A DNA stretch of 43,140 nt from Burkholderiales bacterium (GTDB lineage: Bacteria; Pseudomonadota; Gammaproteobacteria; Burkholderiales; Burkholderiaceae_C), in assembly GCA_025363275.1 (NCBI GenBank), contig JANYEE010000140.1, positions 1 through 43,140 on the forward strand, read 5' to 3'. Shown here piece by piece: positions 18,166 to 43,058 of the stretch. The position numbers and the translations under genes are program-made. Under the pieces are notes generated by a model, which saw only the letters and a list, made by a program, of their open reading frames with translations, was not told the origin of the DNA and made no database searches. Numbering within the stretch: position 1 is the stretch's first letter; each line of letters starts with the position of its first letter.

Positions 18166-19305
18166 TCACGGGGTGTAACTCTTGGTCTGACCCCCAAGTC
18201 TATTGGCTTGCATGGCGGCCGCTACTTCCTGGCCTAATTCAATGACCGCCATCGCGTAATAACTGCTCCAGTTGTAACGGGTGATGGTGTAGAAGTTAGC
18301 GGTGCCCGCTACGTACTGCGCAGCGGCTGCGCCATTTTGTAATTCCACCAGCGCTAGCAGGCCTGGGTGTAAGAGCGCGTCGGCATCCAGCTCGGCGCCC
18401 TTGTCGGCCATCACGGCTGGGCTGAAGGTAGGCAAGATGTCGGGCGCCATCAACGCCGTCATGTCGAGCTTGGCGGGGTTAAATTGCACTTTGTAGTGCG
18501 TGGGCATGCCACTCTGCCAGCCGTAGGACTTGAAGTAATTGGCCACCGAGCCAATCACATCCGCGGCGCTGTTGAACAGGTCGATGCGGCCATCGCCATC
18601 AAAGTCCACCGCGTACTGGCTCCAGCTCGATGGCATGAACTGCGGTAGTCCCATGGCACCGGCATAGCTGCCGCGCAGGGCTAGCGGGTCGGTGCCAGTG
18701 CGCTCCGTCAATACCAAAAAGGCCTCTAGTTCTGACAAGAAGTAGGCACTGCGTGCCTTGGCGCGTGGGTGGCTTTGCGGAAAGTCAGACGCCAGCGTGG
18801 TGAGCGCGTCCATCACCCGGTAGGTGCCGATCTGCTGGCCGTAAATCGTCTCCACGCCAATGATGCCCACAATGATCTCGGGCGGCACGCCAAATTCTTG
18901 CTGGGCGCGCTGCAGTGCATCGGCATGGGCCAGCCAGAACTTGACCCCGGCGGCGGTGCGGATGGAATCAACAAAGCGGCTGCGGTACACCGCCCAGTTT
19001 TTGGGCATGCCAATGGGGGCGGGTGCCATGGCGCGCACGACAGACGGCATCAAGTGCGCGTGGCCGATGGCCTGACGCACCCAGTCGGCGCTCAAGCCCG
19101 AGCGCTGGGCTATGGCATCTGCGGCTTGCATGGCATCGGCCCGGGTGGCGTACAGCGGGCCGGTAGTTGTTGTAAGTGCTCGAGTTGCCTTAGAAATCGA
19201 CTTTTTAGCGTGTTTTAGGCCGCTGGCCCAGGTGTTTCCTGCCTGAGTAGCTATAAAAAATGTAGCAATGAGGCTAAAGGCCCATCGTTTTGAAGGTCGG
19301 TTCAT
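18166..19305 (-). CDS. mltB: Lytic murein transglycosylase, MltB family
   Basis: The 379-residue product is an MltB-family lytic transglycosylase. GIIGVETIYGQQIGTY holds the catalytic Glu152; GAMGLPQFMPSSW and FDGDGRIDLFNSAADVIGSVANYF follow as usual. It cuts the MurNAc-GlcNAc bond in peptidoglycan with formation of 1,6-anhydroMurNAc. A signal peptide is present, and there is no lipobox Cys, so the protein is periplasmic. Residues about 13-32 of the signal region are encoded by a copy of the local hairpin repeat. The start overlaps the transglutaminase stop by 4 bases (ATGA). Confidence 0.9.
   Translation of the reverse strand: MNRPSKRWAFSLIATFFIATQAGNTWASGLKHAKKSISKATRALTTTTGPLYATRADAMQAADAIAQRSGLSADWVRQAIGHAHLMPSVVRAMAPAPIGMPKNWAVYRSRFVDSIRTAAGVKFWLAHADALQRAQQEFGVPPEIIVGIIGVETIYGQQIGTYRVMDALTTLASDFPQSHPRAKARSAYFLSELEAFLVLTERTGTDPLALRGSYAGAMGLPQFMPSSWSQYAVDFDGDGRIDLFNSAADVIGSVANYFKSYGWQSGMPTHYKVQFNPAKLDMTALMAPDILPTFSPAVMADKGAELDADALLHPGLLALVELQNGAAAAQYVAGTANFYTITRYNWSSYYAMAVIELGQEVAAAMQANRLGGQTKSYTP
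19211..19266 (-). repeat. Hairpin repeat copy inside the mltB signal-peptide codons
   Basis: On the minus strand this reads GCTACATTTTTTATAGC, then CTCAGGCAGGAAACACCTGGG and CC..GGCCTAAAA, the same order of parts as the intergenic copies at 29424, 36552 and 42993. It is in frame in mltB and codes for IATFFIATQAGNTWASGLK. Confidence 0.8.
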
Positions 19306-21341: not shown

Positions 21342-22396
21342 GGATGCACCGCCAGCGCCATCAGACATTTTTGTTGGTGGGTAGGGCCACAACCCGGAAC
21401 AATCTCTTGGCTGGGTAAGCGCAGGCCGTATTGCAAGCCCTGTTTCTCGGCCAGCAGCACCCAAGCGCACAGGCGCGACAGGCCAGCCTCTACATGGCTG
21501 CGTGCGCCGCCCAGGCCCGTGTGCGCCAGGTCCAGCCACAGCTCAAAACGCTGTACTTGCTGGGCATCACGGCTTACTAGCTCGTCTGACTTTGCGGCCT
21601 TTTTCCAGACCACCAGTTTGAGCGGGTCGCCCCGACGGTAGGCGCGCACACCATCAAACTCGCCAGTCGTTTGCTGGTGCACCGCCACGCTGCCGCCCGC
21701 ACGCGGTTCGCCGGGGGGAAGTGGCGGTGGGTGCAGTTCGGGCGCGGGGTAGACCAGCACGCTGGCGGCAGGCCGCCACACCGTCCAGACCCGAAACGTG
21801 CCCAAAGGAAAGTGCGTTTGTGCGGTGAGGGTGGGCAGGCGGTGCAGGCCGCGTTGCGGTGGGCTAAAGCCCACTTGCACCTTGCTGGCACCCTGGGCGG
21901 GCACATCGGTCCAGCTCCAATGGTTGGTGCCCAGCACCGCCAGGCCAATACCGTAGCGTACGGATGTGCGCTGACTCAGCACATTGATGGCAATTGTGAC
22001 GCTGGCCCCCGCAAACTGTGCCTCGGGTGCTATCAAAGTCATAGTGATGCCGCGCAGGTTGCTGTGGCACACGTGCATGCCCACCAGCGCGCTGCCGGCT
22101 AGCAAAAAGGTGAGTACGTAGCCCAGATTAAGCTGGTAATTGATGGATGCAACAAGCAACACCCCTAGCGTCATCGCCAGCATGATGCCGGGGCGCGTAG
22201 GTAGGATGTAGACGTTGCGCTGCGTGAGAAAGGTTTGGTCCTGCAGCTTGAGCCGCGATTCAAACCACCGCTGGAATCGCTGACGCAGCAAGGTGAGGGG
22301 ATTCCAAGTCAGTGCACCCGTGGAACCGGCTTCGCCGGGCCACTGGGTGCGCCCCCTTGAGGGGGGAGCGCCGGAGGCGCTTCGGGGGGGAGTCAT
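21338..22396 (-). CDS. DUF58 domain protein
   Basis: The 352-residue product has two adjacent membrane segments (PTRPGIMLAMTLGVLLVASI, LGYVLTFLLAGSALVGM) and a C-terminal DUF58 region with FDGVRAYRRGDPLKLVVWKKAAK. DUF58 proteins are partners of MoxR-family AAA ATPases and are structurally close to von Willebrand A domains; the biochemical role is unclear. ATG 22396 lies 2 bases after the moxR stop and is the only ATG that fits. The first 20 codons (MTPPRSASGAPPSRGRTQW) come from a GC-rich palindromic repeat, so the N-terminus is probably not conserved and a later non-ATG start is possible. Confidence 0.88.
   Translation of the reverse strand: MTPPRSASGAPPSRGRTQWPGEAGSTGALTWNPLTLLRQRFQRWFESRLKLQDQTFLTQRNVYILPTRPGIMLAMTLGVLLVASINYQLNLGYVLTFLLAGSALVGMHVCHSNLRGITMTLIAPEAQFAGASVTIAINVLSQRTSVRYGIGLAVLGTNHWSWTDVPAQGASKVQVGFSPPQRGLHRLPTLTAQTHFPLGTFRVWTVWRPAASVLVYPAPELHPPPLPPGEPRAGGSVAVHQQTTGEFDGVRAYRRGDPLKLVVWKKAAKSDELVSRDAQQVQRFELWLDLAHTGLGGARSHVEAGLSRLCAWVLLAEKQGLQYGLRLPSQEIVPGCGPTHQQKCLMALAVHP
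22343..22390. repeat. GC-rich palindromic repeat at the DUF58 5' end
   Basis: Two hairpins lie side by side: GCGCCCCCTTGAGGGGGG, and GCGCCGGAGGCGC followed by TTCGGGGGGG. From memory, elements of this CCCCCTTGAGGGGG/AGCGCCGnAGGCGCT type are dispersed in Comamonadaceae genomes. This copy is within the predicted coding start of the DUF58 gene. Confidence 0.6.
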
Positions 22397-27560: not shown

Positions 27561-27612
27561 TGGTCTGAATAAATTCGTAACCCGCGTGTAACAAGCATTT
27601 TTGGAGATTTTC

Positions 27613-29403
27613 ATGAGCTACATCGCCCCCGTTAAAGACATGATGTTCAACATTGAACACCTGGCCAATATCGAACAAATCGCACTACTCCCCGGCTTTG
27701 AAGATGCCGGTCTGGACACGGCGCTGGCTGTGCTCGAAGAGTCGGCCAAATTTTCTGAGGGCGTGCTGAGTCCGCTAAATTGGGAAGGTGACAAAAACCC
27801 GTCGAGCTGGAAAGACGGTGTGGTTACGGCCACCCCGGGTTTTAAGGAAGCCTTCAAGCAATTCACGGATGGCGGATGGCAGGGCCTGCAGCACCCCACC
27901 GCATTTGGCGGTCAGGGTCTGCCCAAGACCATTGGTGCTGCCTGCGGCGAGATGGTCAACAGCGCCAACATGAGCTTTGCGCTGTGCCCGCTGCTCAGCG
28001 ACGGTGCGATTGAAGCGCTGCTCACGGCAGGTTCCGACGCATTGAAGGCGACCTATCTTGAAAACCTGGTCAGCGGCAAGTGGACTGGCACGATGAACCT
28101 GACTGAGCCCCAAGCCGGAAGTGACTTGGCGGCGGTACGCAGCCGTGCAGAGCCGCAGGCCGATGGAACTTACAAAGTATTCGGTACCAAAATCTATATC
28201 ACTTGGGGTGAGCATGACATGGCCGAAAACATCGTCCATCTGGTGCTGGCCCGCGTGACGGGTGCGCCCGAGGGCGTCAAGGGCATTAGCCTGTTTGTCG
28301 TGCCGAAGTTCATGGTCAACAAGGATGGGTCCTTGGGTGCGCGCAACGATGTGCATTGCGTTTCCATTGAACACAAGATGGGCATCAAGGCCAGCCCAAC
28401 GGCCGTGCTGCAGTACGGCGACCATGGTGGTGCCGCGGGTTACTTGGTGGGCCAGGAAAACCGCGGCTTGGAGTACATGTTCATCATGATGAACGCCGCG
28501 CGCTACGGCGTGGGTGTGCAAGGCATTGCGATTGCCGAGCGCGCCTACCAGAAGGCCGTGCAGTTCTCTAAAGACCGCGTACAAAGCCGCCCGGTAGATA
28601 GCTCCATGCCGGCGGCTGCACCCATCATTCACCACCCCGATGTACGCCGCATGCTGATGACTATGCGCGCCTATACCGAAGGCTGCCGGGCAATGGCGAG
28701 CGTTGGTGCGAGTGCTTTTGATGCGGCCCACCACCATCCTGATGCCGAGGTACGTAAGCAGAACCAAGCCTTTTACGAATACTTGGTGCCGCTGATCAAG
28801 GGCTACAGCACCGAGATGAGTTTGGAAGTCACATCCTTGGGCATACAAGTGCATGGTGGTATGGGCTTTATCGAAGAAACCGGTGCCGCCCAGTACTACC
28901 GCGACGCCAAGATTTTGACTATCTACGAGGGCACGACCGCCATTCAGGCCAATGACCTGGTGGGCCGCAAGACGGCACGTGATGGCGGCCAAACAGCCAA
29001 GGGCATTGCCGCACAGATCGAAACGACCGAGGCTGAACTGGCCGTCAGCGGCTCCGCCCATGCGCGGGCGGTGGCCCAGCGCCTGAAGGCCGCGCGTTTG
29101 GCCTTCGTCGATGTGGTGGAGTTTGTGGCCGGTAACACCAAGGCTAGCCCCAACGCCGTGTTCGCTGGCAGCGTGCCCTATTTGATGCTGGCGGGCAACC
29201 TGATGGCGGGCTGGCAACTGGGCCGTGCACTGCTGGTGGCCGAAAAGCAAATTGCCACTGGCACCGACGTGCCCTTTATGCAAGCCAAGGTCACCACCGC
29301 GCGTTTCTATGCCGACCACCTGCTCAGTAAAGCCGGCGGCCTGCGAGACAGTATTGTGGAAGGCGCTGACAGCGTGACCGCACTGGCGCTGGATGCTTTC
29401 TAA
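27613..29403 (+). CDS. Acyl-CoA dehydrogenase, large (about 600-residue) type
   Basis: The 596-residue flavoenzyme has the acyl-CoA dehydrogenase core: an N-terminal helical part, GTMNLTEPQAGSDLAAVRS in the middle domain, YKVFGTKIYITWGEHD, and LGIQVHGGMGFIEETGAAQYYRDAKILTIYEGTT (quoted as HGGMGFIEETG and YEGTTAIQANDLVGRK) in the C-terminal helical domain. About 130 extra C-terminal residues match the domain found in the DmdC and FadE-like long subgroup. The chain-length preference cannot be read from sequence. The start is ATG 27613, with TTGGAGATT upstream. It is next to etfBA, its likely electron acceptor. Confidence 0.93.
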   Translation: MSYIAPVKDMMFNIEHLANIEQIALLPGFEDAGLDTALAVLEESAKFSEGVLSPLNWEGDKNPSSWKDGVVTATPGFKEAFKQFTDGGWQGLQHPTAFGGQGLPKTIGAACGEMVNSANMSFALCPLLSDGAIEALLTAGSDALKATYLENLVSGKWTGTMNLTEPQAGSDLAAVRSRAEPQADGTYKVFGTKIYITWGEHDMAENIVHLVLARVTGAPEGVKGISLFVVPKFMVNKDGSLGARNDVHCVSIEHKMGIKASPTAVLQYGDHGGAAGYLVGQENRGLEYMFIMMNAARYGVGVQGIAIAERAYQKAVQFSKDRVQSRPVDSSMPAAAPIIHHPDVRRMLMTMRAYTEGCRAMASVGASAFDAAHHHPDAEVRKQNQAFYEYLVPLIKGYSTEMSLEVTSLGIQVHGGMGFIEETGAAQYYRDAKILTIYEGTTAIQANDLVGRKTARDGGQTAKGIAAQIETTEAELAVSGSAHARAVAQRLKAARLAFVDVVEFVAGNTKASPNAVFAGSVPYLMLAGNLMAGWQLGRALLVAEKQIATGTDVPFMQAKVTTARFYADHLLSKAGGLRDSIVEGADSVTALALDAF

Positions 29404-29423
29404 GCCTGGTGTACCTAGATTAT

Positions 29424-29480
29424 GCTACTGAAATAATAGCAGCCCAGGCTTTAAATACCTGGGCCCCAGCCTGATTTGAT
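29424..29480 (+). repeat. Hairpin repeat copy between acyl-CoA dehydrogenase and nitronate monooxygenase
   Basis: GCTACTGAAATAATAGC is followed by CCCAGG...CCTGGGCCCCAG and CTGATTTGA. It shares its order of parts and the CCTGGGCCCCAG core with the copy at 36552 and, reversed, at 30484. It fills most of the 103-base gap. Confidence 0.85.
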
Positions 29481-29506
29481 TAAAAAACACGTCTACAGGA
29501 GCCCCT

Positions 29507-30478
29507 ATGTCCCATTTGCCAGCCCCGCTCAATAGCCTGCCGTTTCCGGTCATCGGCTCACCGCTGTTCATCATCAGCAACCCCAAACTGGTAATTGCCC
29601 AGTGCACTGCCGGCGTGGTGGGTTCCATGCCTGCGCTGAATGCCCGCCCGGTCGAACTATTGGAAGAGTGGTTGATCGAAATCACCGAGACATTAGCCGC
29701 CTACAACAAGGCCCACCCAGATACGCCCGCTGCGCCGTTTGCGATCAATCAGATCGTGCACAAGAGCAACGACCGTTTGGAGCACGATATGGCGCTGTGC
29801 GTGAAGTACAAAGTGCCCATCATCATTACCAGCCTGGGGGCGCGCGAAGAAATCAACGCCGCAGCCCACAGCTACGGTGGTGTGGTGCTGCACGACATCA
29901 TCAACAATAAGCATGCCCACAAAGCGATCGAGAAGGGCGCTGATGGCCTGATCGCTGTAGCCGCGGGGGCTGGTGGTCACGCGGGCGTGAAGAGCCCGTT
30001 TGCGCTGATCCAGGAAATTCGCCAGTGGTTTGACGGCCCCATCGCTTTGAGCGGAGCTATTTCGACTGGCGCCGCTGTGCTGTCAGCCCAGGCCATGGGC
30101 GCCGACTTCGCCTACATCGGCTCGGCCTTTATCGCCACCGAAGAGGCACGCGCCGCACAGGCGTACAAAGATGCCATCGTAGCCCATGACTCCGACGAGA
30201 TTGTCTATAGCAACCTCTTTACGGGCGTGCATGGCAACTACCTGGCTCCTAGCATCCGCGCTGCCGGCCTGGACCCGGCTAACCTGCCCGAGAGCGACCC
30301 CAGCAAGATGAACTTCGGTGGGGCATCGGCCAAAGCCTGGAAAGACATCTGGGGCTGCGGCCAGGGGATTGGTGCGGTGACCAAGGTGCAAGCGGCGGGC
30401 GAGTACATCGCCCAGCTCAAGCGCGAATACGCAGTGGCTAAGGCTGGGTTGCTGGCGCACCAATACGTTGGCGTTTAA
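29507..30478 (+). CDS. NAD(P)H-dependent flavin oxidoreductase, nitronate monooxygenase type
   Basis: The 323-residue TIM-barrel flavoprotein starts LPFPVIGSPLFIISNPKLV. It has IVHKSNDRLEHDMALCVKYK and the FMN/catalytic region AVAAGAGGHAGVKSPFALI, in which the His matches the catalytic base of nitronate monooxygenases. ALSGAISTGAAVLSAQAMGADFAYIGSAF completes the FMN phosphate site. The enzymes oxidise alkyl nitronates, though many homologues act on other substrates such as enoyl compounds. An AGGAG site precedes the ATG. The gene is flanked on both sides by inverted copies of the hairpin repeat. Confidence 0.9.
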   Translation: MSHLPAPLNSLPFPVIGSPLFIISNPKLVIAQCTAGVVGSMPALNARPVELLEEWLIEITETLAAYNKAHPDTPAAPFAINQIVHKSNDRLEHDMALCVKYKVPIIITSLGAREEINAAAHSYGGVVLHDIINNKHAHKAIEKGADGLIAVAAGAGGHAGVKSPFALIQEIRQWFDGPIALSGAISTGAAVLSAQAMGADFAYIGSAFIATEEARAAQAYKDAIVAHDSDEIVYSNLFTGVHGNYLAPSIRAAGLDPANLPESDPSKMNFGGASAKAWKDIWGCGQGIGAVTKVQAAGEYIAQLKREYAVAKAGLLAHQYVGV

Positions 30479-30483
30479 ACATC

Positions 30484-30538
30484 TTTTGGGCCTGGGGCCC
30501 AGGTGTAATATGCGTGATACGCTATCAAATCGATAGCG
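30484..30538 (-). repeat. Hairpin repeat copy after the nitronate monooxygenase gene
   Basis: On the minus strand this reads GCTATCGATTTGATAGC, then ACACCTGGGCCCCAGGCCCAAAAGA. The orientation is opposite to the copy at 29424, so the two bracket the gene. The second hairpin is less regular than in the other copies. Confidence 0.8.
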
Positions 30539-31199
30539 CATCAGTTTGACTCTGGTCCCACCAGATAGGTGCATCACCCAACTGCCAGAGCGCGTATTTG
30601 CGCATCAGCAAGACAAAGCGGGGTGAGTTTTCCCAGGCATTTAACCAGGCCTGCAGCGCGGGCCAAGGCTGAGCCGCAAACCAGGTCGGGTCGGTGTGGG
30701 CCCACTGGCGGGCAAAGGGGGCAATCGCCGCGTCTGATAGGCCCCAAGTGCTGCCCGCCAGATACGCGGTGCGCGCCAGCTTGCCGTTAAGTTCCGCCAA
30801 GAACACACTGCCTTGCGCTCGATGCGCCAGCCCATCGGGCAGGTCATAGCGGTTGGGGTATTTGTAGCGGTCCAGATGTGTCTTGAACTCGCCGTCGCAC
30901 TCCGCAATCATCGCCAATTCTTCAGCACATATCGCATGGTTGGCCGCCAACCAGTGTTCCGGATCGTGGCGCTGCAGGGCCCACAGCATGATGTCCAGGC
31001 TTTGTTCCAGTACTTGGCCGTCGTGCAATTGCAAAACCGGTACCGTACCCTTGGGTGAAATGGCCAACAACTCTGCAGGCTTGCTGCGCAGTGCTACTTC
31101 GCGCAGTTCACACACCACGCTACTGCTCAGTAGCGCCATGCGCGCCCGCATGGCGTAGGGGCAGCGGCGAAAGGAATAAAGGATTGGAGGGACGATCAA
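30525..31199 (-). CDS. Glutathione S-transferase family protein
   Basis: The 224-residue product has an N-terminal thioredoxin-like domain: [19 protein letters not shown] with a Cys-Pro-Tyr-Ala active site, [12 protein letters not shown] with the cis-Pro, and [12 protein letters not shown] with the gamma-glutamyl-binding Ser. An all-helical C-terminal domain follows. The Cys motif suggests an omega-like or glutaredoxin-like GST, with thiol-transfer or dehydroascorbate-type activity. The start is taken as TTG 31199, which overlaps the trhO stop as TTGA; a longer frame reads back into trhO without conserved residues. Its 3' end reaches into the repeat copy. Confidence 0.85.
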
Positions 31200-32131
31200 G
31201 GCAGCTTGGCGCCAATGTGGGTTTGCGCGCGCGATTTGGCCAGCTCCCACTGGCGCTGGCGTTCTCGCCCGCTGTTCTTTTGTGTCTTGCTGGTGTGGGC
31301 ATGGCAGCGCGGGCAGCTCACGCCTGCCTCATACAGCGGCGACTCGGTGGCACCTTCGGGCAGCGGCTGGCGGCAGGCGCGGCACAGCGCGTGTGCGCCA
31401 GGCACCAGTGCATGGCCCACCGAGACGCGCTCGTCAAACACGAAGCATTCGCCTTCCCACAGGCTATGTTCGGGCGGCACGGTCTCCAAATATTTCAGGA
31501 TGCCACCTTCCAGGTGGTAGACCTCGTCATACCCTAGGGATTTCATTAGTGCGGTGGATTTCTCACAGCGAATACCGCCGGTGCAAAACATTGCGACCTT
31601 GGGTTTTTTGCCAACCGCTTTGCCCAGGCGCTCCGCGTCTTCGACCCACCTCGGCAGCTCGGAAAAGGACCGGATATTCGGGTTCACCGCGTAGGAGAAA
31701 GTACCGATCTCCACCTCGTAGTCATTGCGCGTGTCCACCACCACCACTTCAGGATCAGCGATCAGCGCGTTCCAGTCGGCGGGTTTCACATAGATTCCCG
31801 CCCTATGGATCGGGCTGATACCCGGCACGCCCAGGGTCACGATCTCTTTTTTCAAGCGCACTTTCATGCGATAAAACGGTGCACGCTCGGACCACGATTC
31901 CTTGTGTTGCAGGTCCGCCAGCAGCGGATCGCTGCGCAAATAGGCCAGTACGGCGTGCACGCCCTCAGCCTGCCCGGCAATGGTGCTGTTGATGCCCTCG
32001 CAGGCCAAAAGTATCAGACCTTTGACGCTGTGCTGTTCGCATAGCGCCTGCAGAGGGGCACGTCGATCGGCAAAGTCGGGCAGATCGACAAACTTGTAGA
32101 AAGCGGCGGTAAGGTAAACGGGAGTGGACAT
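31196..32131 (-). CDS. trhO: tRNA uridine(34) hydroxylase, rhodanese-domain protein
   Basis: The 311-residue product starts [20 protein letters not shown], has an N-terminal acylphosphatase-like part ([18 protein letters not shown]) and a central rhodanese domain with the active-site loop [16 protein letters not shown]. The C-terminus has two Cys pairs (LCRACRQP and SCPRCHAH), probably a zinc site. TrhO (YceA) proteins use O2 to hydroxylate uridine 34 in tRNA, the first step to 5-methoxyuridine or 5-carboxymethoxyuridine. ATG 32131 is chosen over a longer frame that runs into the dnaJ terminator. The GST gene is coupled by a 4-base overlap. Confidence 0.93.
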
Positions 32132-32159
32132 GGGTGTATTTTCCCACTGGAGTACACAA

Positions 32160-32199
32160 AAAAATACCGCCCCGTCTGACATGACGGGGCGGTATTTTG
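32160..32199 (-). terminator. Rho-independent terminator after dnaJ
   Basis: A perfect 13-base stem (ATACCGCCCCGTC pairing with GACGGGGCGGTAT, 6-base loop) is followed on the minus strand by a T run. It lies between the dnaJ stop and the trhO start. Confidence 0.93.
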
Positions 32200-32206
32200 G
32201 CAAGCC

Positions 32207-33340
32207 TCAACTAAACAGGTTCTTCAAGCGGTCGGTCCAGCTGTCACCGGACGGCGAATGCTTGCTGCCGCCTTTTTTGAACGAGTCGTCTAGCTCGCGC
32301 ATCAGCTTACGCTGGTGCTCGCTGAGCTTGACCGGCGTTTCCACTGAGATATGGCAGTACAAATCGCCAGGGTAGCTGGCGCGCACGCCCTTGATGCCCT
32401 TGCCACGCAGGCGGAATTGTTTGCCGCTTTGCGTGCCTTCGGGGATATCAATAGCCGCTTTACCAGCCAGCGTGGGCACTTCAATCTCGCCACCCAGCGC
32501 TGCGGTCACCATGCTGATGGGCACGGAGCAGTGCAGGTCATCACCATCGCGCTCAAAGATGTCGTGTTTCTTGATGCGGATCTCGATGTACAGATCGCCC
32601 GGGGGGCCCCCATTGGTACCGGGTTCGCCATTGCCCGCCGAGCGAATCCGCATGCCGCCGTCGATACCCACAGGGATTTTGACTTCCAGCGTCTTCTGGC
32701 GCTTGATCTTGCCTTGGCCACTACACGCCGTGCAGGGCTCAGGAATGACCTTGCCTGTGCCGCGGCAGGTAGGACAAGTTTGCTGCACACTGAAAAAGCC
32801 CTGGCGCATTTGTACGGTGCCCGCACCGCTGCAGGTCCCGCAGGTCTTGACCTGGGTGCCCGGCTTGGCGCCGGCACCTTTGCAGACCTCGCAGCTGTCC
32901 CAGCTTGGAATACGAATCTGGGCGTCTTTGCCTTTGGCTGCTTCTTCCAGCGTGACTTCCATGGCGTAGCTCAGGTCAGAGCCGCGGAACACCTGTCGCC
33001 CACCGGCGCCTGCACGTCCACGTTGCTGGCCAAACATGTCGCCAAAAATGTCACCAAAGGCCTCGGCAAAACCACCGTAGCCATCGCCACCGGCGCCACC
33101 GCGGTTGGGGTCCACACCGGCGTGACCGTACTGGTCATAGGCAGCGCGCTTTTGCGCGTCCGAGAGCATCTCGTAGGCTTCCTTGCCTTCTTTGAATTTC
33201 TCCTCGGCCACCTTAGAGCTGTCTCCCTGGTTGCGGTCTGGGTGGTGCTTCATCGCCAACTTGCGATAGGCCTTTTTGATGTCTTCCTCGGAAGCGTTCT
33301 TGGGAACGCCCAGAGTTTCGTAGTAGTCTCGTTTGGCCAT
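32207..33340 (-). CDS. dnaJ: Chaperone protein DnaJ
   Basis: The 377-residue co-chaperone shows a J domain with HPD (KHHPDRNQG), a Gly/Phe-rich linker, and four zinc-binding C-x-x-C-x-G-x-G repeats: [24 protein letters not shown] and CTACSGQG. The C-terminal substrate-binding domain follows. It stimulates DnaK ATPase and delivers clients. It lies 106 bases after dnaK, across a long hairpin, and ends at a strong terminator. Length and layout match the type I family. Confidence 0.97.
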
Positions 33341-33370
33341 GTTCTCTCTGCGCCTGGTTACAACACAAAA

Positions 33371-33405
33371 GCCGCGTTAGGCGCCAACTTGGCGTCCAAC
33401 GCGGC
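33371..33405 (-). terminator. Long hairpin between dnaK and dnaJ, terminator or attenuator
   Basis: GCCGCGTT pairs with AACGCGGC around an inner GGCGCCAA/TTGGCGTCC stem with one bulge. On the minus strand TTTTGTGTTG follows. The T run is interrupted, so partial termination or mRNA processing between dnaK and dnaJ is more likely than a full stop. Confidence 0.6.
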
Positions 33406-33446
33406 GCGCGTGGGATCGGTCACCGCTTGCCGATGACCTCTCTGTC

Positions 33447-35405
33447 TCAGCCCTTCTTAACTTCCTTGACTTCCGCGTCCACTACGTTGTCGTCATCCGG
33501 CTTGGCGGACGATTGCGCGTGGGCTGCGTGGTCTTGTGTAGCACCTTCCGGGCCAGCGCCACCCGCAGCGGCTTCTTTGGCTTGCTGGTCGGCGTACATC
33601 TTCTCGCCCAGTTTCTGGCTAGCCGCCATCAGAGCGTTGCCCTTGTCTTCAATGCGGGACTTGTCATCGCTCTTCAGGGCTTCTTCCAGTTCCTTGATTG
33701 CCGCTTCAATCTTCTCCTTCTCGCCTGCGTCCAGCTTGTCGCCATACTCGGTCAGGCTCTTCTTCACGCTGTGCATATTGCTGTCAGCGGTGTTCTTGGC
33801 CTGCACCAGTTCCAGCTTCTTCTTGTCGTCCGCAGCGTTAAGTTCAGCATCTTTCACCATTTGCTGGATCTCAGCTTCCGACAATCCGGAGTTGGCCTTG
33901 ATGGTGATCTTGCTTTCTTTGCCAGTGCCCTTGTCCTTGGCGCCCACGTGCAAGATGCCGTTGGCGTCAATGTCAAAGGACACTTCAATTTGCGGTGTGC
34001 CACGGGCCGCCGGAGGAATACCCTCCAAGTTGAACTCACCCAGCATTTTGTTGCCCTGGGCAATCTCGCGCTCGCCCTGGAATACCTTGATGGTCACAGC
34101 GGGCTGGTTGTCTTCCGCGGTCGAGAAAGTTTGTGCAAACTTGGTCGGGATCGTGGTGTTCTTGGTAATCATTTTGGTCATGACACCGCCCATGGTCTCG
34201 ATACCCAGGGACAGAGGTGTCACGTCCAGCAGCAACACGTCTTTGCGGTCGCCAGACAACACCTGGCCTTGAATCGCAGCACCTACGGCCACGGCTTCAT
34301 CAGGGTTCACGTCCTTGCGTGGCTCTTTGCCAAACAATTCCTTGACCTTCTCTTGTACCTTGGGCATGCGGGTCATACCGCCGACCAAAATCACGTCATG
34401 GATGTCGGCTACGTTAACTCCAGCGTCCTTGATCGCTGTGCGGCACGGCGCAATGGTACGCTCGATCAGCTCTTCGACCAGGCTTTCCAGCTTGGCGCGC
34501 GTGAGCTTGATGTTCAAGTGCTTGGGACCAGACGCATCGGCGGTCACGTAGGGCAGGTTGATGTCGGTTTGCGCGCTGCTGGACAACTCGATCTTGGCCT
34601 TTTCAGCAGCTTCCTTCAGGCGTTGCAGAGCCAGCACGTCCTTGCCCAAGTCGACGCCTTGTTCTTTCTTGAACTCGGTGATGATGAAGTCGATGATGCG
34701 TTGGTCAAAGTCTTCACCGCCCAGGAAGGTGTCACCGTTGGTGGACAACACTTCGAATTGCTTTTCACCGTCAACGTCAGCGATTTCGATTATGGATACG
34801 TCAAACGTACCGCCACCCAAGTCATACACAGCAATCTTGCGGTCGCCCTTTTCGTTTTTGTCCAAGCCAAAGGCCAGCGCAGCAGCGGTAGGTTCGTTGA
34901 TGATGCGCTTGACATCCAGACCGGCAATACGGCCAGCGTCTTTGGTGGCTTGGCGCTGTGCGTCATTGAAGTACGCAGGCACCGTGATAACGGCGTCGGT
35001 TACCTCTTCGCCAAGATAGTCTTCGGCGGTCTTCTTCATCTTGCGCAGAATGTCAGCGCTGACTTGCTGAGGTGCCATGCGATTGCCGCGCACTTCGACC
35101 CAGGCGTCACCATTGTCGGCTGCAGCAATCTTGTAGGGCATCAGGTCGATGTCCTTTTGCACTTCCTTCTCGGAGAACTTGCGGCCGATCAAACGTTTGA
35201 CCGCGTACAGCGTGTTCTTGGGATTGGTCACCGATTGGCGCTTGGCGGATGCACCGACCAGCACTTCGCCGTCTTCCTGGTAGGCAATGATCGACGGTGT
35301 GGTGCGCGCACCTTCCGAGTTCTCGATCACTTTGGCAGTGTTGCCTTCCATGATGGCCACACAACTGTTGGTGGTTCCCAAGTCAATGCCGATGATTCTT
35401 CCCAT
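33447..35405 (-). CDS. dnaK: Chaperone protein DnaK (Hsp70)
   Basis: The 652-residue Hsp70 starts [20 protein letters not shown]. It has the three HSP70 signatures ([38 protein letters not shown]), a nucleotide-binding domain to about residue 385, the linker [13 protein letters not shown] and a C-terminal lid ending [12 protein letters not shown]. It binds unfolded proteins with ATP turnover and works with the DnaJ and GrpE encoded alongside. A sigma-32 promoter match lies upstream. An uninterrupted frame on the opposite strand is a coding shadow. Confidence 0.98.
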
Positions 35406-35483
35406 GATTTACTCCTAGTGTCATTTGAGGACAGAGCTAAAGATCTGCCCACCAAGTTGTTTGAAAAAATTTAGATGTGTTTA

Positions 35484-35511
35484 AGGTGCGGCGATTGCGC
35501 GACTTTTCAAG
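35484..35511 (-). promoter_or_regulatory. Sigma-32 heat-shock promoter candidate before dnaK
   Basis: On the minus strand CTTGAA (35511-35506) is followed, after a 14-base spacer, by CCGCACCT (35491-35484), against the sigma-32 consensus CTTGAA and CCCCATnT. It lies about 80 bases before the dnaK ATG, at the grpE 3' end. Confidence 0.72.
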
Positions 35512-35517
35512 GGGCGA

Positions 35518-36075
35518 CTACTTCGGGGCCGACACGGTGATCAGGGCAGGGCGTAGCACGCGGTCGGCAATCAGGTAACCCTTTTGCAGCACGCTAACCA
35601 CGGTGTTGGCGTCGTGCTCGGAGGGAACCACGCTGATAGCCTGATGCTGGTGCGGATCAAATTTCTCGCCCGGGCCCGGGTTGATGGCAATCACCTTGTT
35701 GCGCTCCAGCGCGGCCAGTAGTTGGCGCAAGGTGGCTTGGGCGCCTTCGCGGATTTGCTCGTTAGTCGCGTCCTTGATGATCAGGCCGGCCTCCAAGCTA
35801 TCGGCCACGGGCAGCAGGCTTTCGGCCAGGCTCTCGACAGCAAACCTGCGGGCTTTGGAGACTTCGTCCTCAGCGCGGCGGCGGGCGTTTTCTGCCTCGG
35901 CCTTGGCACGCAGGAACTGGTCGGCCAGCTCCGCGCTCTTGGCTTGCAAAGTGGTCAACTCGGCTTGTACCCGGGTCAGCTCGGCCTCGGGCGAGGCCAG
36001 GGCTGCCATGATCTCTTCGGGGGTAGCGTGCGGGGTGCTTGCGGCGGCGGTGTGGGTGTTGGCGTTATCAGACAT
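35518..36075 (-). CDS. grpE: Nucleotide exchange factor GrpE
   Basis: The 185-residue product has a disordered Ala/Thr-rich start and a long coiled-coil ([19 protein letters not shown]...). The GrpE core includes [18 protein letters not shown] and the C-terminal beta domain with [17 protein letters not shown] and [20 protein letters not shown]. It releases ADP from DnaK. It is the first gene of the grpE-dnaK-dnaJ block and has its own sigma-32 promoter match. dnaK follows after 112 bases. Confidence 0.96.
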
Positions 36076-36107
36076 GCTGGTTGGGGGTAATAAACTTCTA
36101 AGCCCCC

Positions 36108-36135
36108 AAATGGGGGCCTAGACAGGGTTTTCAAG
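36108..36135 (-). promoter_or_regulatory. Sigma-32 heat-shock promoter before grpE
   Basis: On the minus strand CTTGAA (36135-36130) is followed, after 14 bases, by CCCCATTT (36115-36108), a full match to the sigma-32 consensus. The -10 box lies inside the small palindrome GCCCCCATTTGGGGGC. Confidence 0.85.
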
Positions 36136-36167
36136 GGCACTTTGCCCTGTTTGCGACCAGTTTTTGT

Positions 36168-36521
36168 TTAACCAGCGACTTTGAGCAACTCAACGTCAAA
36201 TTTCAGGGTGGCGTTCGGCGGAATCACGCCACCAGCGCCGGACGTACCGTAACCCAACGCCGCTGGAATGATTAGTGTGCGGGCGCCGCCGACCTTCATG
36301 CCCGCCACGCCTTCGTCCCATCCGCGGATCACCATGCCAGCGCCCAGGCTGAACACAAAGGGATCATTACGGTCCTTGCTGGAATCAAATTTGGCGCCTT
36401 GCACGCCGTCGTTGTAGAGCCAGCCGGTGTAATGCACCGTGACGCTTTGGCCCTTGGTGGCTACGGGGCCGCTGCCCTCGGTTGTGTCGTCGTACTGGAG
36501 GCCGGTCGCGGTAGTTTGCAT
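36168..36521 (-). CDS. FKBP-type peptidyl-prolyl cis-trans isomerase
   Basis: The 117-residue protein is a single FKBP domain: VTVHYTGWLYNDGVQGAKFDSS, FSLGAGMVIRGWDEGVAGMKVGG, TLIIPAALGYG and NATLKFDVELLKV. All main FK506-pocket positions (Tyr, Asp, Phe, Val-Ile, Trp, Tyr, Phe) appear present. It has no signal peptide, so it is a cytoplasmic proline isomerase that may assist folding. ATG 36521 starts the domain; the frame extends upstream only into a repeat. It is upstream of grpE on the same strand, but the heat-shock promoter lies between them. Confidence 0.94.
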   Translation of the reverse strand: MQTTATGLQYDDTTEGSGPVATKGQSVTVHYTGWLYNDGVQGAKFDSSKDRNDPFVFSLGAGMVIRGWDEGVAGMKVGGARTLIIPAALGYGTSGAGGVIPPNATLKFDVELLKVAG

Positions 36522-36551
36522 AGTGATCCTTGCGTGGTTTGTTGTTTGTTT

Positions 36552-36614
36552 GCTATCAAATAAATAGCTGCACAGGCAGGTTTTACCTGGGCCCCAGCCC
36601 TGAAATGGCATAAA
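36552..36614 (+). repeat. Hairpin repeat copy upstream of the FKBP gene
   Basis: GCTATCAAATAAATAGC, then ACAGGCAGGTTTTACCTGGG, CCCCAGCCCTGAAATGG and CATAAAA. This is one of the most complete copies and shares the CCTGGGCCCCAG core with the copy at 29424. Confidence 0.87.
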
Positions 36615-36649
36615 ACTGCCCATGGGAGGACCTAAATTATGCCGCACAC

Positions 36650-36676
36650 AAAAAAAGACAGGCTATACCTGTCTTC
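36650..36676 (-). terminator. Terminator after the winged-helix regulator
   Basis: The stem AGACAGG/CCTGTCT with a 5-base loop (36656-36674) is followed on the minus strand by seven T. It lies about 50 bases after the regulator stop. Confidence 0.85.
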
Positions 36677-36723
36677 TGTGGTGCACCTCAGGCCCAAAAG
36701 GCAGGTGCCGCTCTGCCGCTACT

Positions 36724-37035
36724 TTACTTGGCTTTTTTGGTTTGGCTAGCCGCCCATTTGGTGGCGAAAGCCTGCAAATCGCCCAGGCGCTTGAGCAAAT
36801 CTGCACCGGATGCAGTAACGCTGTAGCCTTCGGAGCCGTGCGTTAATAAACCTACTTCACGCAGCTCTTTGATGCGGGTATTCAGAGTATTTGGGGTGAT
36901 GCTTCCAACGCTGTCTTGCAGCAAACGGAAGGTTTGAGCATGACCGTCTCGCAGAGCCCAGAGGACGCGCATCGCATAACGGGACTCCAGCAGCCCCAAC
37001 AGTTGTCCGATGGCGACCGATTCTTTTGAACTCAT
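36724..37035 (-). CDS. Small winged-helix transcriptional regulator, HxlR-like
   Basis: The 103-residue protein is one winged helix-turn-helix domain. LLGLLESRYAMRVLWALRDG is followed by FRLLQDSVGSITPNTLNTRIKEL (recognition helix region) and VGLLTHGSEGYSVTASGADLL (wing). The pattern fits HxlR/MarR-type regulators, without the conserved N-terminal Cys of HxlR sensors. The regulated genes are unknown. It is divergent from the ComFB-family gene, with a 254-base intergenic region that may hold its operator. A Lys-rich tail (TKKAK) ends the protein. Confidence 0.8.
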   Translation of the reverse strand: MSSKESVAIGQLLGLLESRYAMRVLWALRDGHAQTFRLLQDSVGSITPNTLNTRIKELREVGLLTHGSEGYSVTASGADLLKRLGDLQAFATKWAASQTKKAK

Positions 37036-37141
37036 TAACTACCTCTCCTATTTGTCGTCACGGGCCGAAGCCGCGCATTATCGCGCTGAAAAAGCATACC
37101 TGCTAATCGGTGCCTGTGGACTATATCGCAGTTTTTTGGCT

Positions 37142-37175
37142 GCTACAAGTTTCATAGCTGAACTGACCCAAATAT
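37142..37175 (+). repeat. Possible degenerate hairpin repeat in the divergent intergenic region
   Basis: GCTACAAGTTTCATAGCTG matches the first hairpin of the repeat family, but only ACTGACCCAAA follows and the CCTGGG arm is missing. I see no other clear signal in the 254 bases between the winged-helix and ComFB genes. Confidence 0.35.
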
Positions 37176-37289
37176 CACGGCTTCGTTGTATCCCTGTTTG
37201 CAGCCGCGTTCTTTCCTATTGTCAGTCCCTCGGTGACATGCTAAGGTTGATGATAATTGGCCCGCACGGGCAGTGAACTGGAGAAGCCC

Positions 37290-37574
37290 ATGGTGTTCAA
37301 TTTCGAGCAGGTCCACAACTACTTTGAGCGATTGATCTTCGAGGAGGTAGCCAAGCGCTCCGAGGATCACTCCGAGTTCACCATCGATATGTTGTCTGAC
37401 GTGGCCTGCGTGGCTCTAAACCGCTTGCCACCGCGCTATGTGCGCCACGATGTGGACATGATGTTTTACCTCACAGAGCGCGAACGTCATGCGATTGAGC
37501 TGTCGATGGAAGAAGCTCTGCATTTTGCGTTTGGCTTTGTGATGGAACGCGCCACCAAAACCACTGCTGCCTGA
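37290..37574 (+). CDS. ComFB-family protein
   Basis: The 94-residue protein begins MVFNFEQVHNYFERLIFEEV and has the ComFB family pattern: DMLSDVACVALNRLPPRYVRHDVDMMFYLT, given here as the motifs ALNRLPPRYV and DVDMMFYLT. The family is named from the Bacillus late competence operon; some cyanobacterial and other members have been reported to bind cyclic di-GMP. In this genome a signalling role is as likely as a competence role. ATG 37290 has GGAGAAG upstream. It converges on aroE, with stop codons adjacent. Confidence 0.82.
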   Translation: MVFNFEQVHNYFERLIFEEVAKRSEDHSEFTIDMLSDVACVALNRLPPRYVRHDVDMMFYLTERERHAIELSMEEALHFAFGFVMERATKTTAA

Positions 37575-38411
37575 TTAAAAGCTGGCGTGTACTTTGCCCA
37601 GCAGGGCATTTGAGATCGTCGGCATCACACCAAACCAGGCGTTAAAAGCGGGCCGCGCCTGGTTCAGTAGCATCCCCAAGCCGTTGACCGTACTATTGCC
37701 CCGCAGCCTGGCGGCGGCTAATAGCGGTGTTTCCAGCGGCGCATAGATCACATCCGATACCAGAGCCTGTGGGCTTAAAACACTTAGATTTAGATCTAAC
37801 TCGGGTTGCCCTTGCATGCCTAAATTGGTGGTGTTGACCACCAAAGCCACGTCCTCTACCGCCGCATGGCGCTCGGCCCATGCCACCGCGACCACTTGCG
37901 GACCAAAGGCCGCCACCAGTTCCTGTGTTTTGTCGGGGCTGCGGTTGGTCAGGCGAATCGATGGCACGCCGCTGTCCAGCAGACCCGCGATCACCGCGCG
38001 CGCCGCACCGCCAGCACCCAGCACCAAGGCTGGGCCTGCATTGGCTTGCCAGTTCGGCCGGGCATCGCGCAGACTTTGTATATAACCAAAGGCATCGGTG
38101 TTGCAGCCCGACAAACTGCCATCGGTTTCCACCACAATGCAGTTGATGGCTCCAATGCGCTGGGCAAGCGGGTCAATCTGGTCAACGATGGACATTGCCG
38201 CCACTTTGTGCGGAATGGTCAGATTGCAGCCCGAAAACCCCAACACCGGCAGTGCGCGCAAAGCCTGCTCCAGCGTCTCGGGCGCTACTGGTAGCAGCAC
38301 GTAGCTGCCGCGCAGGCTGTGCTCGGCAATCCAGTGGTTGTGGATGATGGGCGAGCGGGAGTGGCCCACTGGCCAGCCCATCACACCGACCAGGGTGTAC
38401 GGGACTTGCAA
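37575..38411 (-). CDS. aroE: Shikimate 5-dehydrogenase
   Basis: The 278-residue enzyme has the substrate motif GWPVGHSRSPIIHN, the catalytic Lys in LTIPHKVAA, Asp in NTDAFGY, and the NADP motif VLGAGGAARAVIAGLL followed by LTNRSPDKTQ. It reduces 3-dehydroshikimate to shikimate in aromatic amino acid synthesis. The start is TTG 38411, two bases after the rpoD stop, and no ATG or GTG fits better. It is therefore probably translated by coupling to rpoD. Confidence 0.95.
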   Translation of the reverse strand: MQVPYTLVGVMGWPVGHSRSPIIHNHWIAEHSLRGSYVLLPVAPETLEQALRALPVLGFSGCNLTIPHKVAAMSIVDQIDPLAQRIGAINCIVVETDGSLSGCNTDAFGYIQSLRDARPNWQANAGPALVLGAGGAARAVIAGLLDSGVPSIRLTNRSPDKTQELVAAFGPQVVAVAWAERHAAVEDVALVVNTTNLGMQGQPELDLNLSVLSPQALVSDVIYAPLETPLLAAARLRGNSTVNGLGMLLNQARPAFNAWFGVMPTISNALLGKVHASF

Positions 38412-38413
38412 GA

Positions 38414-40726
<2,313 letters not shown>

Positions 40727-40980
40727 GCGGGAACCTCTGGACATCAAAAAAACGATCGGGCGAGCAGAACATGTGCCTTCTAGGCCCTTCATTGGTTCGT
40801 GCAAGGGCTTTAGTTGGCTGTGCGGGAGCTAAATTCAAGAGTGAATCTAGCTCACCGTGGGCAAGATGGGAGGGCGAACATTTGGCGTGCAGTCCTTGCG
40901 GTGAGGTGGCCGGTTGAGGTTTTATCAACGCTTGGCCTGATCCGGAGGTGCTGCTGTCGCTCTTGCCTGACTAACCCTGC

Positions 40981-40986
40981 ATTATA
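40981..40986 (-). promoter_or_regulatory. Consensus -10 box for rpoD at the dnaG 3' end
   Basis: TATAAT on the minus strand lies just past the dnaG stop. A weak CTGGAA 17 bases upstream, inside dnaG, may be the -35. Transcription from here would give a leader of about 245 bases before rpoD. I see no other signal in the 268-base gap. Confidence 0.5.
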
Positions 40987-40994
40987 GCGCCCGT

Positions 40995-42944
40995 TTAAGA
41001 CTTTTCCAGCTGTTTGACCAATTGTTGGTGCCGCAGGCGCAGATCGTTGTAGCGTTGCTTGGCGGCCGGGTCGGTGGCAAACGTCGCGATCGCTTCGTCC
41101 TGCTCCCGCTTGATGCGCTCCACCAGCATGCGGTTGAGCAGGTCGCGTAGTTCTGCCGCGGTGTCGGCGGCGCTGGGCGTATCCCCATTGGTTTCTGCCA
41201 TCAGCTGGGTCACCCATTCCTGTGCCGGGTTACCCCCCAAATCGGCCTGCAACGCAGTCCAGGTGAGTGGGCCATGCTCGTGCAATTGTCCTTCCAGCCA
41301 GGCGATCAGTGGTCCGTGCGGTGGAGGCAGGGAGCACAGCATGCCGTGGTCTTCGTTGGACAGGGTTTCCCACAGCGCCGTGTGGGATAGCAACAAGCGG
41401 GTGGCGTGGTCTGCGCGGCTGGTCGGGCGCGCGCGGCGTCCGGCTACGCTGCTGTACGACGGCTCATCCCGGTCTCCATAGCTCCCCTTGCGGTAGCTGC
41501 CCTTTGCGCCGCCTTTCTCCCACTTTTTGGACCAGGGTTTGTCCGAATTACCAAAGCCCAAGTTGTAGCCACTGTCTCGCTGCTCACCATCACGGTTAGG
41601 TGGCGCCCGTTGTGCATACTGCTTTGGTGTTGGGGCGGCGGGATGCCACAGTGCGTCGAGCTTGGCGCTGTCAATTTGCACCAGCCCAGACAGTTCGCTT
41701 AACAACTGCAACTTCAAGGCGCCTTCGGGCAATTGCATCCACAAAGGCTTGGCGTTGGCCGCCATGTGGGCACGGCCCTCAGCGGTTTGCAGGTCGCATC
41801 CCTCGCTGGCGGCTTCTACCAGAAAGCGGCTCAGCGGCGTAGCCTGAGCGATGTACTCGGCAAAGGCGGCGTTGCCGTGGGCGCGGATGAAGCTGTCGGG
41901 GTCATGCTCCTGCGGCAAAAACAGGAATTTGATGCTACGTACATCGGTGGCATAGGGCAGGGCGGCGTCCAGCGCTTTGCGCGCGGCGCGGCGGCCCGCG
42001 CCATCGCCATCGAAGCTGAAAACCACCGCGTCAGTAAACCGAAACAGCTTGTGCACATGGTCGGCTGTACAGGCCGTGCCCAGCGTAGCCACAGCATTGG
42101 CAAAACCCAGCTGCGCCAGCGCCACCACGTCCATATAGCCCTCAGTCACCAGCGCAAAGCCATGGTCGCGCAGCGCGTTGCGCGCTTCAAACAGGCCATA
42201 GAGTTCGCGGCCCTTGCTAAACACCGGGGTTTCTGGAGAGTTGAGGTATTTGGGCTTGTCGTCGCCCAGCACGCGCCCGCCAAAGCCGATGCACTCGCCT
42301 TTGATGTTGCGGATCGGGAACATTACGCGGTCGCGGAAGCGGTCGTAGCGCTTTTCTTCCGTCGCGCCGTCTTCTTGGTTAGAGATCACCAGGCCGCTTT
42401 CTACCAGTAGCGGCTCGTCGTAATTTGGGAACACACTGGCTAAGGTGCGCCAGCCTTCGGGTGCGTAGCCCAGGCCAAATTGCTTAGCGATCTCGCCCGA
42501 CAGGCCGCGGCCCTTGAAATAGGCAATCGCGCGAGGCGAGTCTTTCAGGTGTTTGCGGTAGGCCTCCCCCGCGCGCTCCAGCACGGTGGTGAGTGTGTTT
42601 TGCTTTTGCCGCTGTTCCTGCGCACGGGCACGGTCCTCGGGGCTGCCTTCGTCCTCAGGTACCTGCATGCCGTATTGCTGGGCCAGGTCTTGGACGGCCT
42701 CTACAAAGTTCATACCGGCGTGGTCCATCAAGAAGCTGATGGCGTTGCCGTTTTTGCCACAGCCAAAGCAGTGGTAGAACTGTTTGGCCGGGCTGACCGA
42801 AAACGAGGGCGACTTTTCACCATGAAATGGGCACAGGCCCATGAAGTTGGCGCCGCCCTTTTTAAGCTGCACATAGCGACCCACGATCTCCACCACGTCC
42901 GCGCGCGCGATGAGTTCCTGGATAAAGCTTTGTGGGATGGCCAT
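40995..42944 (-). CDS. dnaG: DNA primase
   Basis: The 649-residue primase starts MAIPQSFIQELIARADVVEI. It has a zinc-binding domain (CPFHGEKSPSF and YHCFGCGKNG), a TOPRIM core (VTEGYMDVVAL, SFDGDGAGRRAARKAL) and a C-terminal helicase-binding domain ending in QLVKQLEKS. A charged, Gly/Lys-rich linker (residues about 430-500) separates core and C-terminus. It makes RNA primers for replication. rpoD lies downstream on the same strand, as in the macromolecular-synthesis operon. The upstream genes rpsU and yqeY are not in the window. Confidence 0.97.
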   Translation of the reverse strand: MAIPQSFIQELIARADVVEIVGRYVQLKKGGANFMGLCPFHGEKSPSFSVSPAKQFYHCFGCGKNGNAISFLMDHAGMNFVEAVQDLAQQYGMQVPEDEGSPEDRARAQEQRQKQNTLTTVLERAGEAYRKHLKDSPRAIAYFKGRGLSGEIAKQFGLGYAPEGWRTLASVFPNYDEPLLVESGLVISNQEDGATEEKRYDRFRDRVMFPIRNIKGECIGFGGRVLGDDKPKYLNSPETPVFSKGRELYGLFEARNALRDHGFALVTEGYMDVVALAQLGFANAVATLGTACTADHVHKLFRFTDAVVFSFDGDGAGRRAARKALDAALPYATDVRSIKFLFLPQEHDPDSFIRAHGNAAFAEYIAQATPLSRFLVEAASEGCDLQTAEGRAHMAANAKPLWMQLPEGALKLQLLSELSGLVQIDSAKLDALWHPAAPTPKQYAQRAPPNRDGEQRDSGYNLGFGNSDKPWSKKWEKGGAKGSYRKGSYGDRDEPSYSSVAGRRARPTSRADHATRLLLSHTALWETLSNEDHGMLCSLPPPHGPLIAWLEGQLHEHGPLTWTALQADLGGNPAQEWVTQLMAETNGDTPSAADTAAELRDLLNRMLVERIKREQDEAIATFATDPAAKQRYNDLRLRHQQLVKQLEKS

Positions 42945-42992
42945 GGAGTGATTGTAGAAAGACAGAGCTGTTGACTGGGGCCGAGAGTGGGT

Positions 42993-43058
42993 GCTATAAA
43001 TTCAATAGCTACTCAGGCAGTCTTTACTTGGGCCTCAGGGTGATTTGACCCATAAATG
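42993..43058 (+). repeat. Hairpin repeat copy upstream of dnaG
   Basis: GCTATAAATTCAATAGC is followed by TACTCAGGCAGTCTTTACTTGGG, CCTCAGGGTGATTTGACC and CATAAATGG. The second stem has one changed pair compared with the 36552 copy. The rest of 42945-43140 shows no gene. Confidence 0.85.

Follow-up and report, generated by a model that had tools for sequence, protein, structure and literature searches.

A dispersed three-hairpin repeat of Comamonadaceae with a genome-specific core, possibly overwritten from copy to copy

The genome of a Burkholderiales bacterium (GCA_025363275.1; G000 below; 3.706 Mb, 269 contigs) contains a dispersed repeat of ~70 nt, five copies of which lie in the stretch of DNA analysed here, positions 1 to 43,140 of contig JANYEE010000140.1 (the window; 43,140 nt). 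The element consists of three short hairpins followed by an ATTTGA..AAAA tail. Comparison with a syntenic relative, G009, and with further genomes (other G-numbers) showed that hairpin 2 and part of hairpin 3, a region of some 20–25 nt referred to here as the core, have a genome-specific sequence. The 5' flank, arm and loop 1 are locus-specific, and the core keeps little or no locus memory. We regard it as an evenly poised proposition, drawn from sequence comparison, that the core is homogenised by template-directed, gene-conversion-like overwriting between dispersed copies. More tentatively, the family may represent a class of repeats spread by overwriting and not by insertion alone, in which the 5' halves are kept, the central hairpin is rewritten genome-wide and native look-alike codons, as in mutS and leuS, are converted in frame at constant length.

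Two covariance models were used, R1 from the five window copies, which is biased toward a CAGG core, and R2 from a multi-species set of 77 copies. Across 65 sources (222,813 bases) there were 90 matches, which reduce to 88 distinct copies with the consensus TTGCTAT-n7-ATAGCTACTCAGGCA-n5-TACCTGGGCC-n-CAG(G/C)CC-n-ATTTGA-n5-AAAA, in which the hairpins come in the order GCTAT/ATAGC, CAGG/CCTG and a short GGCC/GGCC or GGC/GCC. The earlier note on this DNA, made from its letters, had taken the CAGG core as the motif of the family; it is instead the version found in a single species, the whole hairpin being replaced in others. The G000 version reads CAGG/CCTGGGCC and the G009 version CTCCCGCACTATCCA. 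The sequence AGCTNCTCCCGCACTATCCA is present in G009 as 381 exact copies (189 forward, 192 reverse); 79 other genomes of the genus have none, and a reversed control gave zero. The G000 core pattern was found 46 times in G000, once in G009 and not at all in 78 other genus genomes. In other species hairpin 1 and the tail are conserved, with different stems between them (CACG/CGTG, CTCG/CGAG, CCCG/CGGG and more). Within G009 the core is uniform: next to AGC, 898 kb contained 71 exact 15-mers, 14 with one mismatch and 7 with two.

The flanks of the 88 G000 copies were both sought in 1.3 Mb of G009. This gave 26 comparable sites, 23 located by both flanks and 3 by one flank plus synteny (30472, 42989 and L060, the last because the contig ends within the copy). 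Twenty-five sites had a copy in both genomes and 1 had none in G009, a count that includes two corrections by hand (a spurious script match at L009, scored as no copy, and a copy at L028 that the script had missed). With up to 3 mismatches in 15 allowed, 22 of the 25 shared sites had the G009 core in G009; the other 3 retained an older core (36548, L028 and L060; CAGG-like or other), an indication that the G009 core is derived. In permutations of the 25 pairs, identity between true partners versus permuted ones was 0.791 versus 0.669 for columns 1–9 and 0.631 versus 0.462 for columns 10–18 (p = 5e-5 for each, the floor of 20,000 permutations), and 0.520 versus 0.497 for core columns 24–42 (p = 0.016). 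For the 22 pairs scored as converted, core identity was 0.483 versus 0.472 (p = 0.08). The tail retained some locus memory in an earlier set of 16 pairs (p = 0.002). Individual sites illustrate the pattern. At L061:2120 the G000/G009 pair agrees in each of the first 26 nt and differs in the core, and at L038:3283 both genomes share an unusual ACTAT form of hairpin 1 next to a replaced core.

Copies inside protein-coding genes provided a second comparison. Clear copies were seen in mltB, comEC (two copies), an amiC-like gene and a xanthine dehydrogenase-like gene, and in G009 also in leuS, mutS and a DnaE-type polymerase whose homologues are named error-prone DNA polymerase. The mutS segment was 204 nt long in the carriers G009, G000, G003, G007 and G001 and equally in G006, G008 and G002, which are non-carriers (genomes without an R1 match); it was 222 nt in the non-carrier G004, and three other-family proteins were equal in length to within a few residues. 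In frame, the segment reads CTCAGGCAGGAAATACCTGGGCCCCAG in G000 and CTCCCGCACTATCTACGGGCTG in G009, each with its own core, letter for letter as in other G000 copies in the first case and one mismatch from the G009 15-mer in the second. The mutS genes of G003, G007 and G001 contain repeat-like sequence, and that of the non-carrier G008 reads ACGCTACAAAAAACGCAGCAGCTCACGCA, already similar to the 5' half of the element. A genome-specific core without added length is most simply read as a core copied over existing sequence, not inserted. In leuS, five carriers and the non-carrier G006 likewise have a segment of 138 nt. Fifteen homologues of the error-prone polymerase (ImuC) showed no gap at the repeat site; all of them may carry the repeat, so this absence proves little. 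The G009 polymerase had no match in the PDB at E up to 1e-150.

If overwriting does take place, copies would serve as templates for each other and the core would pass from donor to recipient at non-allelic positions. A nascent strand pausing at the hairpin would perhaps switch template, anchored on the GCTAY..AGC half and with short anchors on either side of the core, and native sequence resembling that half might also be convertible. A trans template seems to be needed, because the loop CACTATCCA is not encoded nearby. Templated replacement beside a retained half is typical of reverse-transcriptase systems, and G009 has RVT_1 matches; rewriting of a retron-like kind, or like that of diversity-generating retroelements, is nonetheless highly improbable. 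The carriers G000, G001 and G003 gave no RVT_1 match, the stretches around two of the three G009 matches contain no core, and the single core ~0.7 kb from the third has to be set against one core per ~13 kb in G009.

Several points weigh against overwriting. Searches that covered RVT_1 genes and Y1 genes of the RAYT type (transposases associated with repetitive extragenic palindromic, or REP, elements) revealed no donor, enzyme or intermediate. The G009 mutS copy scored only 21.0 bits with R2. The leuS segment was 126 nt in the non-carrier G004 and 117 nt in the non-carrier G005, 12 and 21 nt shorter, and with non-carriers of differing length the length argument is mixed in this gene. The leuS cores were nearly identical between G001 and G007, which makes overwriting episodic at best. 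In G000 the stem is uniform and the loop of many types, which fits selection on the stem about as well as it fits copying; the G000 copies were moreover collected with a CAGG-based model that favours this core, and the definition of a non-carrier itself leans the same way. A reverse look-up from two 20-kb stretches of G009 returned 10 R2 copies, of which 3, with older or G000-like cores, had a G000 partner and 4 lay in G009 segments missing from G000; the junctions of L199:16386, L183:10267 and L183:18838 had no G000 copy. This indicates that whole copies or copy-bearing segments are also gained and lost, and that 25 of 26 overstates stability. Some intergenic site was ~90 nt shorter where it was without the copy, as expected of insertion.

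Insertion would be the rule if the family were a non-autonomous transposon of the REP type, or a miniature inverted-repeat transposable element, moved by a RAYT, an IS200/IS605-like Y1 or another transposase and divided into species-specific subfamilies by insertion bursts. We consider this somewhat improbable. It fits the hundreds of copies, the hairpins, the presence/absence differences in both directions and the two direct copies that bound an 8.6-kb segment that G000 is without. It also fits a copy or remnant, recognised by eye, just 3' of the Y1 gene in G009, G000, G012, G013 and G015, among which R2 scores the G015 one only (14.6 bits). Within the genus, however, all 8 carriers and 7 of 8 non-carriers have Y1 genes, several of them with flanking GGGGTC/GGGGCC repeats of their own. 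The occupation of 25 of 26 G000 sites in G009, with inherited 5' halves, and the lack of added length in mutS also speak against a transposon. No linked transposase was found in a search aimed at Y1/RAYT genes, other transposase families not being searched. On inspection, the consensus has no terminal inverted repeat and its conserved tail is not the inverse of the 5' end; target-site duplications were not readable, the empty sites being too diverged. The suggestion of a structured RNA or REP-like mobile element in Comamonadaceae thus stood as far as a dispersed, structured, REP-like repeat is concerned, and failed to gain a linked transposase or terminal repeats.

Some individual loci are recorded here as side observations. 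The 8.6-kb segment lies in G009 between the copies at L183 10267–10335 and 18838–18906, and the corresponding G000 junction is copy-free. At the conserved Y1 (RAYT-like) locus of five carriers (L218, L221, L225, L226 and L227), a copy or truncated copy with altered hairpin 1, recognised by eye, sits within the gene's own GGGGTC-type repeats. In G015 (L100), weak copies at 1333–1402 and 2216–2284 flank the Y1 gene at 1462–2202, besides its own GGGGCC-type repeats.

The covariance search that the earlier note had named as a test of the family returned at least 150 R1 matches in G000, a lower bound since 150 of 1080 first-look candidates were scored, and copies of several species covaried at pair 28–40 (see below), so that neither refuting outcome named in the note came about. 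In the genus, 8 of 16 genomes (G000 included) had 34 to 150 matches, the upper figure again being at least 150, and the remaining 8 had none; R1 carriage in this genus therefore looks all-or-none, with 34 or more matches or zero. Nine genomes of other families had no R1 match. R2 matched 90 of 250 sampled genomes of the bacterial family, in 55 of 133 genera. Gene context, called with a simple open reading frame (ORF) finder, placed 20 of 88 copies in genes in G000 and 44 of 101 in G009, the latter figure inflated by weak matches. Weak G009 intragenic matches in aroA-cmk and mutL were left uncounted, alignments with homologues of solved structure suggesting native look-alike codons. Classified intergenic copies lay within 50 nt of a gene edge in 61 of 64 cases in G000 and 47 of 54 in G009. 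Divergent gene pairs were avoided, with 3 of 64 copies in G000 and 2 of 54 in G009 compared with 83 of 355 G009 gaps over 40 nt.

Proximity to gene edges and avoidance of divergent promoter regions would also be expected of a selected nucleic-acid signal, such as an mRNA 3'-end stabiliser, a terminator or a protein-binding hairpin, that co-evolves with a trans-acting factor, every site of a genome tracking the factor as its specificity shifts. The changes on both sides of stem 2 and the fixed stem with variable loop in G000 point the same way. We judge this explanation distinctly unlikely. Copies within genes have the same new core as the others (20 exact G009 cores inside called genes, 16 sense and 4 antisense, and 51 outside), contrary to coding constraint, and in G009 the loop is uniform too. 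An intrinsic terminator was rejected for want of a T tract on inspection of the copies. A strand-asymmetry test for RNA of the + strand, from G.U over A.C, failed its control: C>T exceeded G>A by 29 to 6 in stems and by 17 to 4 in other conserved columns, so the signal is not specific to stems.

The two-hairpin layout given in the earlier note held for both of its hairpins, and a third, weaker one (GGCC-n3-GGCC or GGC-n4-GCC) follows directly after the second; the element has a sharp 5' boundary and a gradual 3' one. Across 77 ungapped copies of several species, 88.1% of cells were paired compared with 85.3% after shuffling and at most 47.2% when the pairing was slid. Changes on both sides of a pair occurred in 24 cells, 16 of them at stem-2 pair 28–40 (G-C in 45 copies, C-G in 16, G-U in 6, unpaired in 10). 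The idea that stems vary with pairing kept is borne out at this pair, and RNAalifold supports hairpin 1 only. Single-copy folding of the five window copies gave z values of –1.97, –3.13, 0.25, –1.27 and 0.03, with 2 of 5 no more stable than shuffled sequence. As inverted repeats the hairpins are credible; an RNA function is putative. A pseudoknot was sought by mutual information and rejected, the strongest signals being short-range A/T switches (54–57, 33–36 and 32–35), not pairs; one further pair, 26–70, involves the ragged last column. In the 70-column numbering, columns 32–36 (loop 2) and 54–58 (tail) alternate between A-rich and T-rich blocks, with no pairing partner that explains them.

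All five window copies listed in the earlier note are present with their parts in the order it gave, and they align gap-free across both hairpins (Table 1). GCTAT, claimed for every copy, gives way to GCTAC in those that the note had placed at 29424 and 19211. In the window, GCTAT-n-ATAGC occurred 3 times compared with 0.16 expected, and 0 of 100 shuffles reached 3. By itself CCTGGGCCCCAG, with at most 2 mismatches, gave 11 window matches compared with 9.4 expected, no excess over chance, and it is thus the combination of elements that counts. The copy said to lie within mltB is indeed there and in frame. At the 29420 junction, copies were also present in G009, G007 and G003, and none was seen in G001, G004, G005, G006 or G008. 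For the 42989 site, copies occur in G009, G007 and G001, and it was located, as was the G009 copy at the 30472 site, by its left flank plus synteny.

Table 1. Repeat copies, their parts and the host gene in the window
Feature	Positions	Strand	Remarks
Repeat copy	19201..19270	-	In frame near mltB start, peptide IATFFIATQAGNTWASGLKHAKK; orthologous G009 copy has the G009 core
mltB-like lytic transglycosylase gene, 379 aa	18166..19305	-	Holds the 19201 copy in frame; PF13406, E=5.2e-88
Repeat copy	29420..29489	+	Between two + ORFs, 27601-29403 and 29507-30478
Repeat copy	30472..30541	-	Between convergent ORFs (+ end 30478, - end 30525)
Repeat copy	36548..36617	+	5' end of called - ORF 36168-36647 (predicted); site in G009 retains an older CAGG-like core
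Repeat copy	42989..43058	+	5' of - ORF 40995-42944
Hairpin 1 of 36548 copy, GCTAT-n7-ATAGC	36552..36568	+	94.0% of cells paired, 77 copies
Hairpin 2 (species-specific core) of 36548 copy, CAGG-n9-CCTG	36573..36589	+	
Hairpin 3 of 36548 copy, GGC-n4-GCC	36590..36599	+	Register varies among copies

Elsewhere in the window, a low-scoring match (20.7 bits, E = 0.0026) lies at 21980–22049 (–) and may be an old copy or coding sequence that resembles one; matches occur at syntenic places in G001 (L122:6643) and G007 (L125:19636). Between window positions 38388 and 38413, G001 (L123:5549) and G007 (L124:19055) have copies with nearly identical cores, and neither G000 nor G009 has a copy at this site. 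Rfam at gathering scores found no curated family in the whole window, and over 29300–30700 it returned a single chance miRNA match (E = 1.4). The 36548 copy had no match among plasmid records at E up to 0.01. The family also occurs in viral or proviral contigs, with R2 matches in 7 of 8 (L285–L292) and 11 pattern matches in L330–L339; several of these copies end, by eye, just before an ATG. Phages may thus ferry the family.

Were overwriting to prove correct, concerted evolution in bacteria would extend to sequences far shorter and more scattered than rRNA-type repeats, and copying between dispersed repeats would be able to change hundreds of sites within a single lineage, among them codons in genes for a tRNA synthetase and for mismatch repair. 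A repeat, and not selection acting on the protein itself, could then drive protein change. The species-specific core might serve to mark strains, and G000 and G009 together offer a good system in which to seek the machinery.

REP elements are short, hairpin-bearing and gene-proximal and occur in hundreds of copies, and the present family resembles them in all these respects. It differs in its ~70 nt length with three hairpins, and most of the RAYT-type genes inspected have repeats of another kind. REPs measure 20–40 bp and many have GTAG or CGTC tags, according to the available text of PMC3733652, in which six Comamonadaceae-related names were sought without a match. The open-licence papers searched held no description of the full element, its in-frame copies or in-place replacement of its core; the relevant Comamonadaceae papers among them were PMC3110155 and PMC5217627 only. 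BRE, found in Bordetella, Polaromonas and Rhodoferax, is likewise a repeat of beta-proteobacteria that is mostly intergenic with some copies in coding sequence; it is ~90 bp long, sometimes tandem, and averages 69.0% GC in Bordetella (accessible part of PMC3110155). The present copies, at 34–51% GC, are set apart from BRE by description, the BRE sequence not being printed in that part of the text. Rickettsia palindromic elements (105–146 bp, with 12 bp terminal inverted repeats) are described as inserts in the portion of PMC2229807 available. They share with the present family a palindromic structure and a presence both between genes and in frame in conserved protein genes; the present family differs in its ~70 nt length, the lack of a terminal inverted repeat and the lack of added length in mutS.

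Two spaced motifs were also compared. The Polaromonas naphthalenivorans motif ATAGCT(N)22CAAAAG had no match in the loci compared here, and with a narrowed pattern hairpin 1 lay upstream in 0 of 32 viral-contig matches. For Acidovorax ebreus TPSY, GCTTAT(N)5AAGCG was called a potential novel motif in 2017, mostly intergenic, generally under 50 bp from genes, and in 44 convergent and 4 divergent positions (PMC5217627, as far as its text was available). That text is without the full element, the species-specific core, the in-frame reading or the replacement. In viral contigs, a pattern joining ATAGCT to the A. ebreus motif had a GCTAT or GCTAC arm directly 5' in 7 of 11 matches, ATAGCT having been required beforehand. 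To judge from sequence, the central hairpin of the present family and the A. ebreus motif are very likely one and the same, and the existence of the motif is thus partly in print already. Both show the same preference for gene edges and the same bias against divergent pairs.

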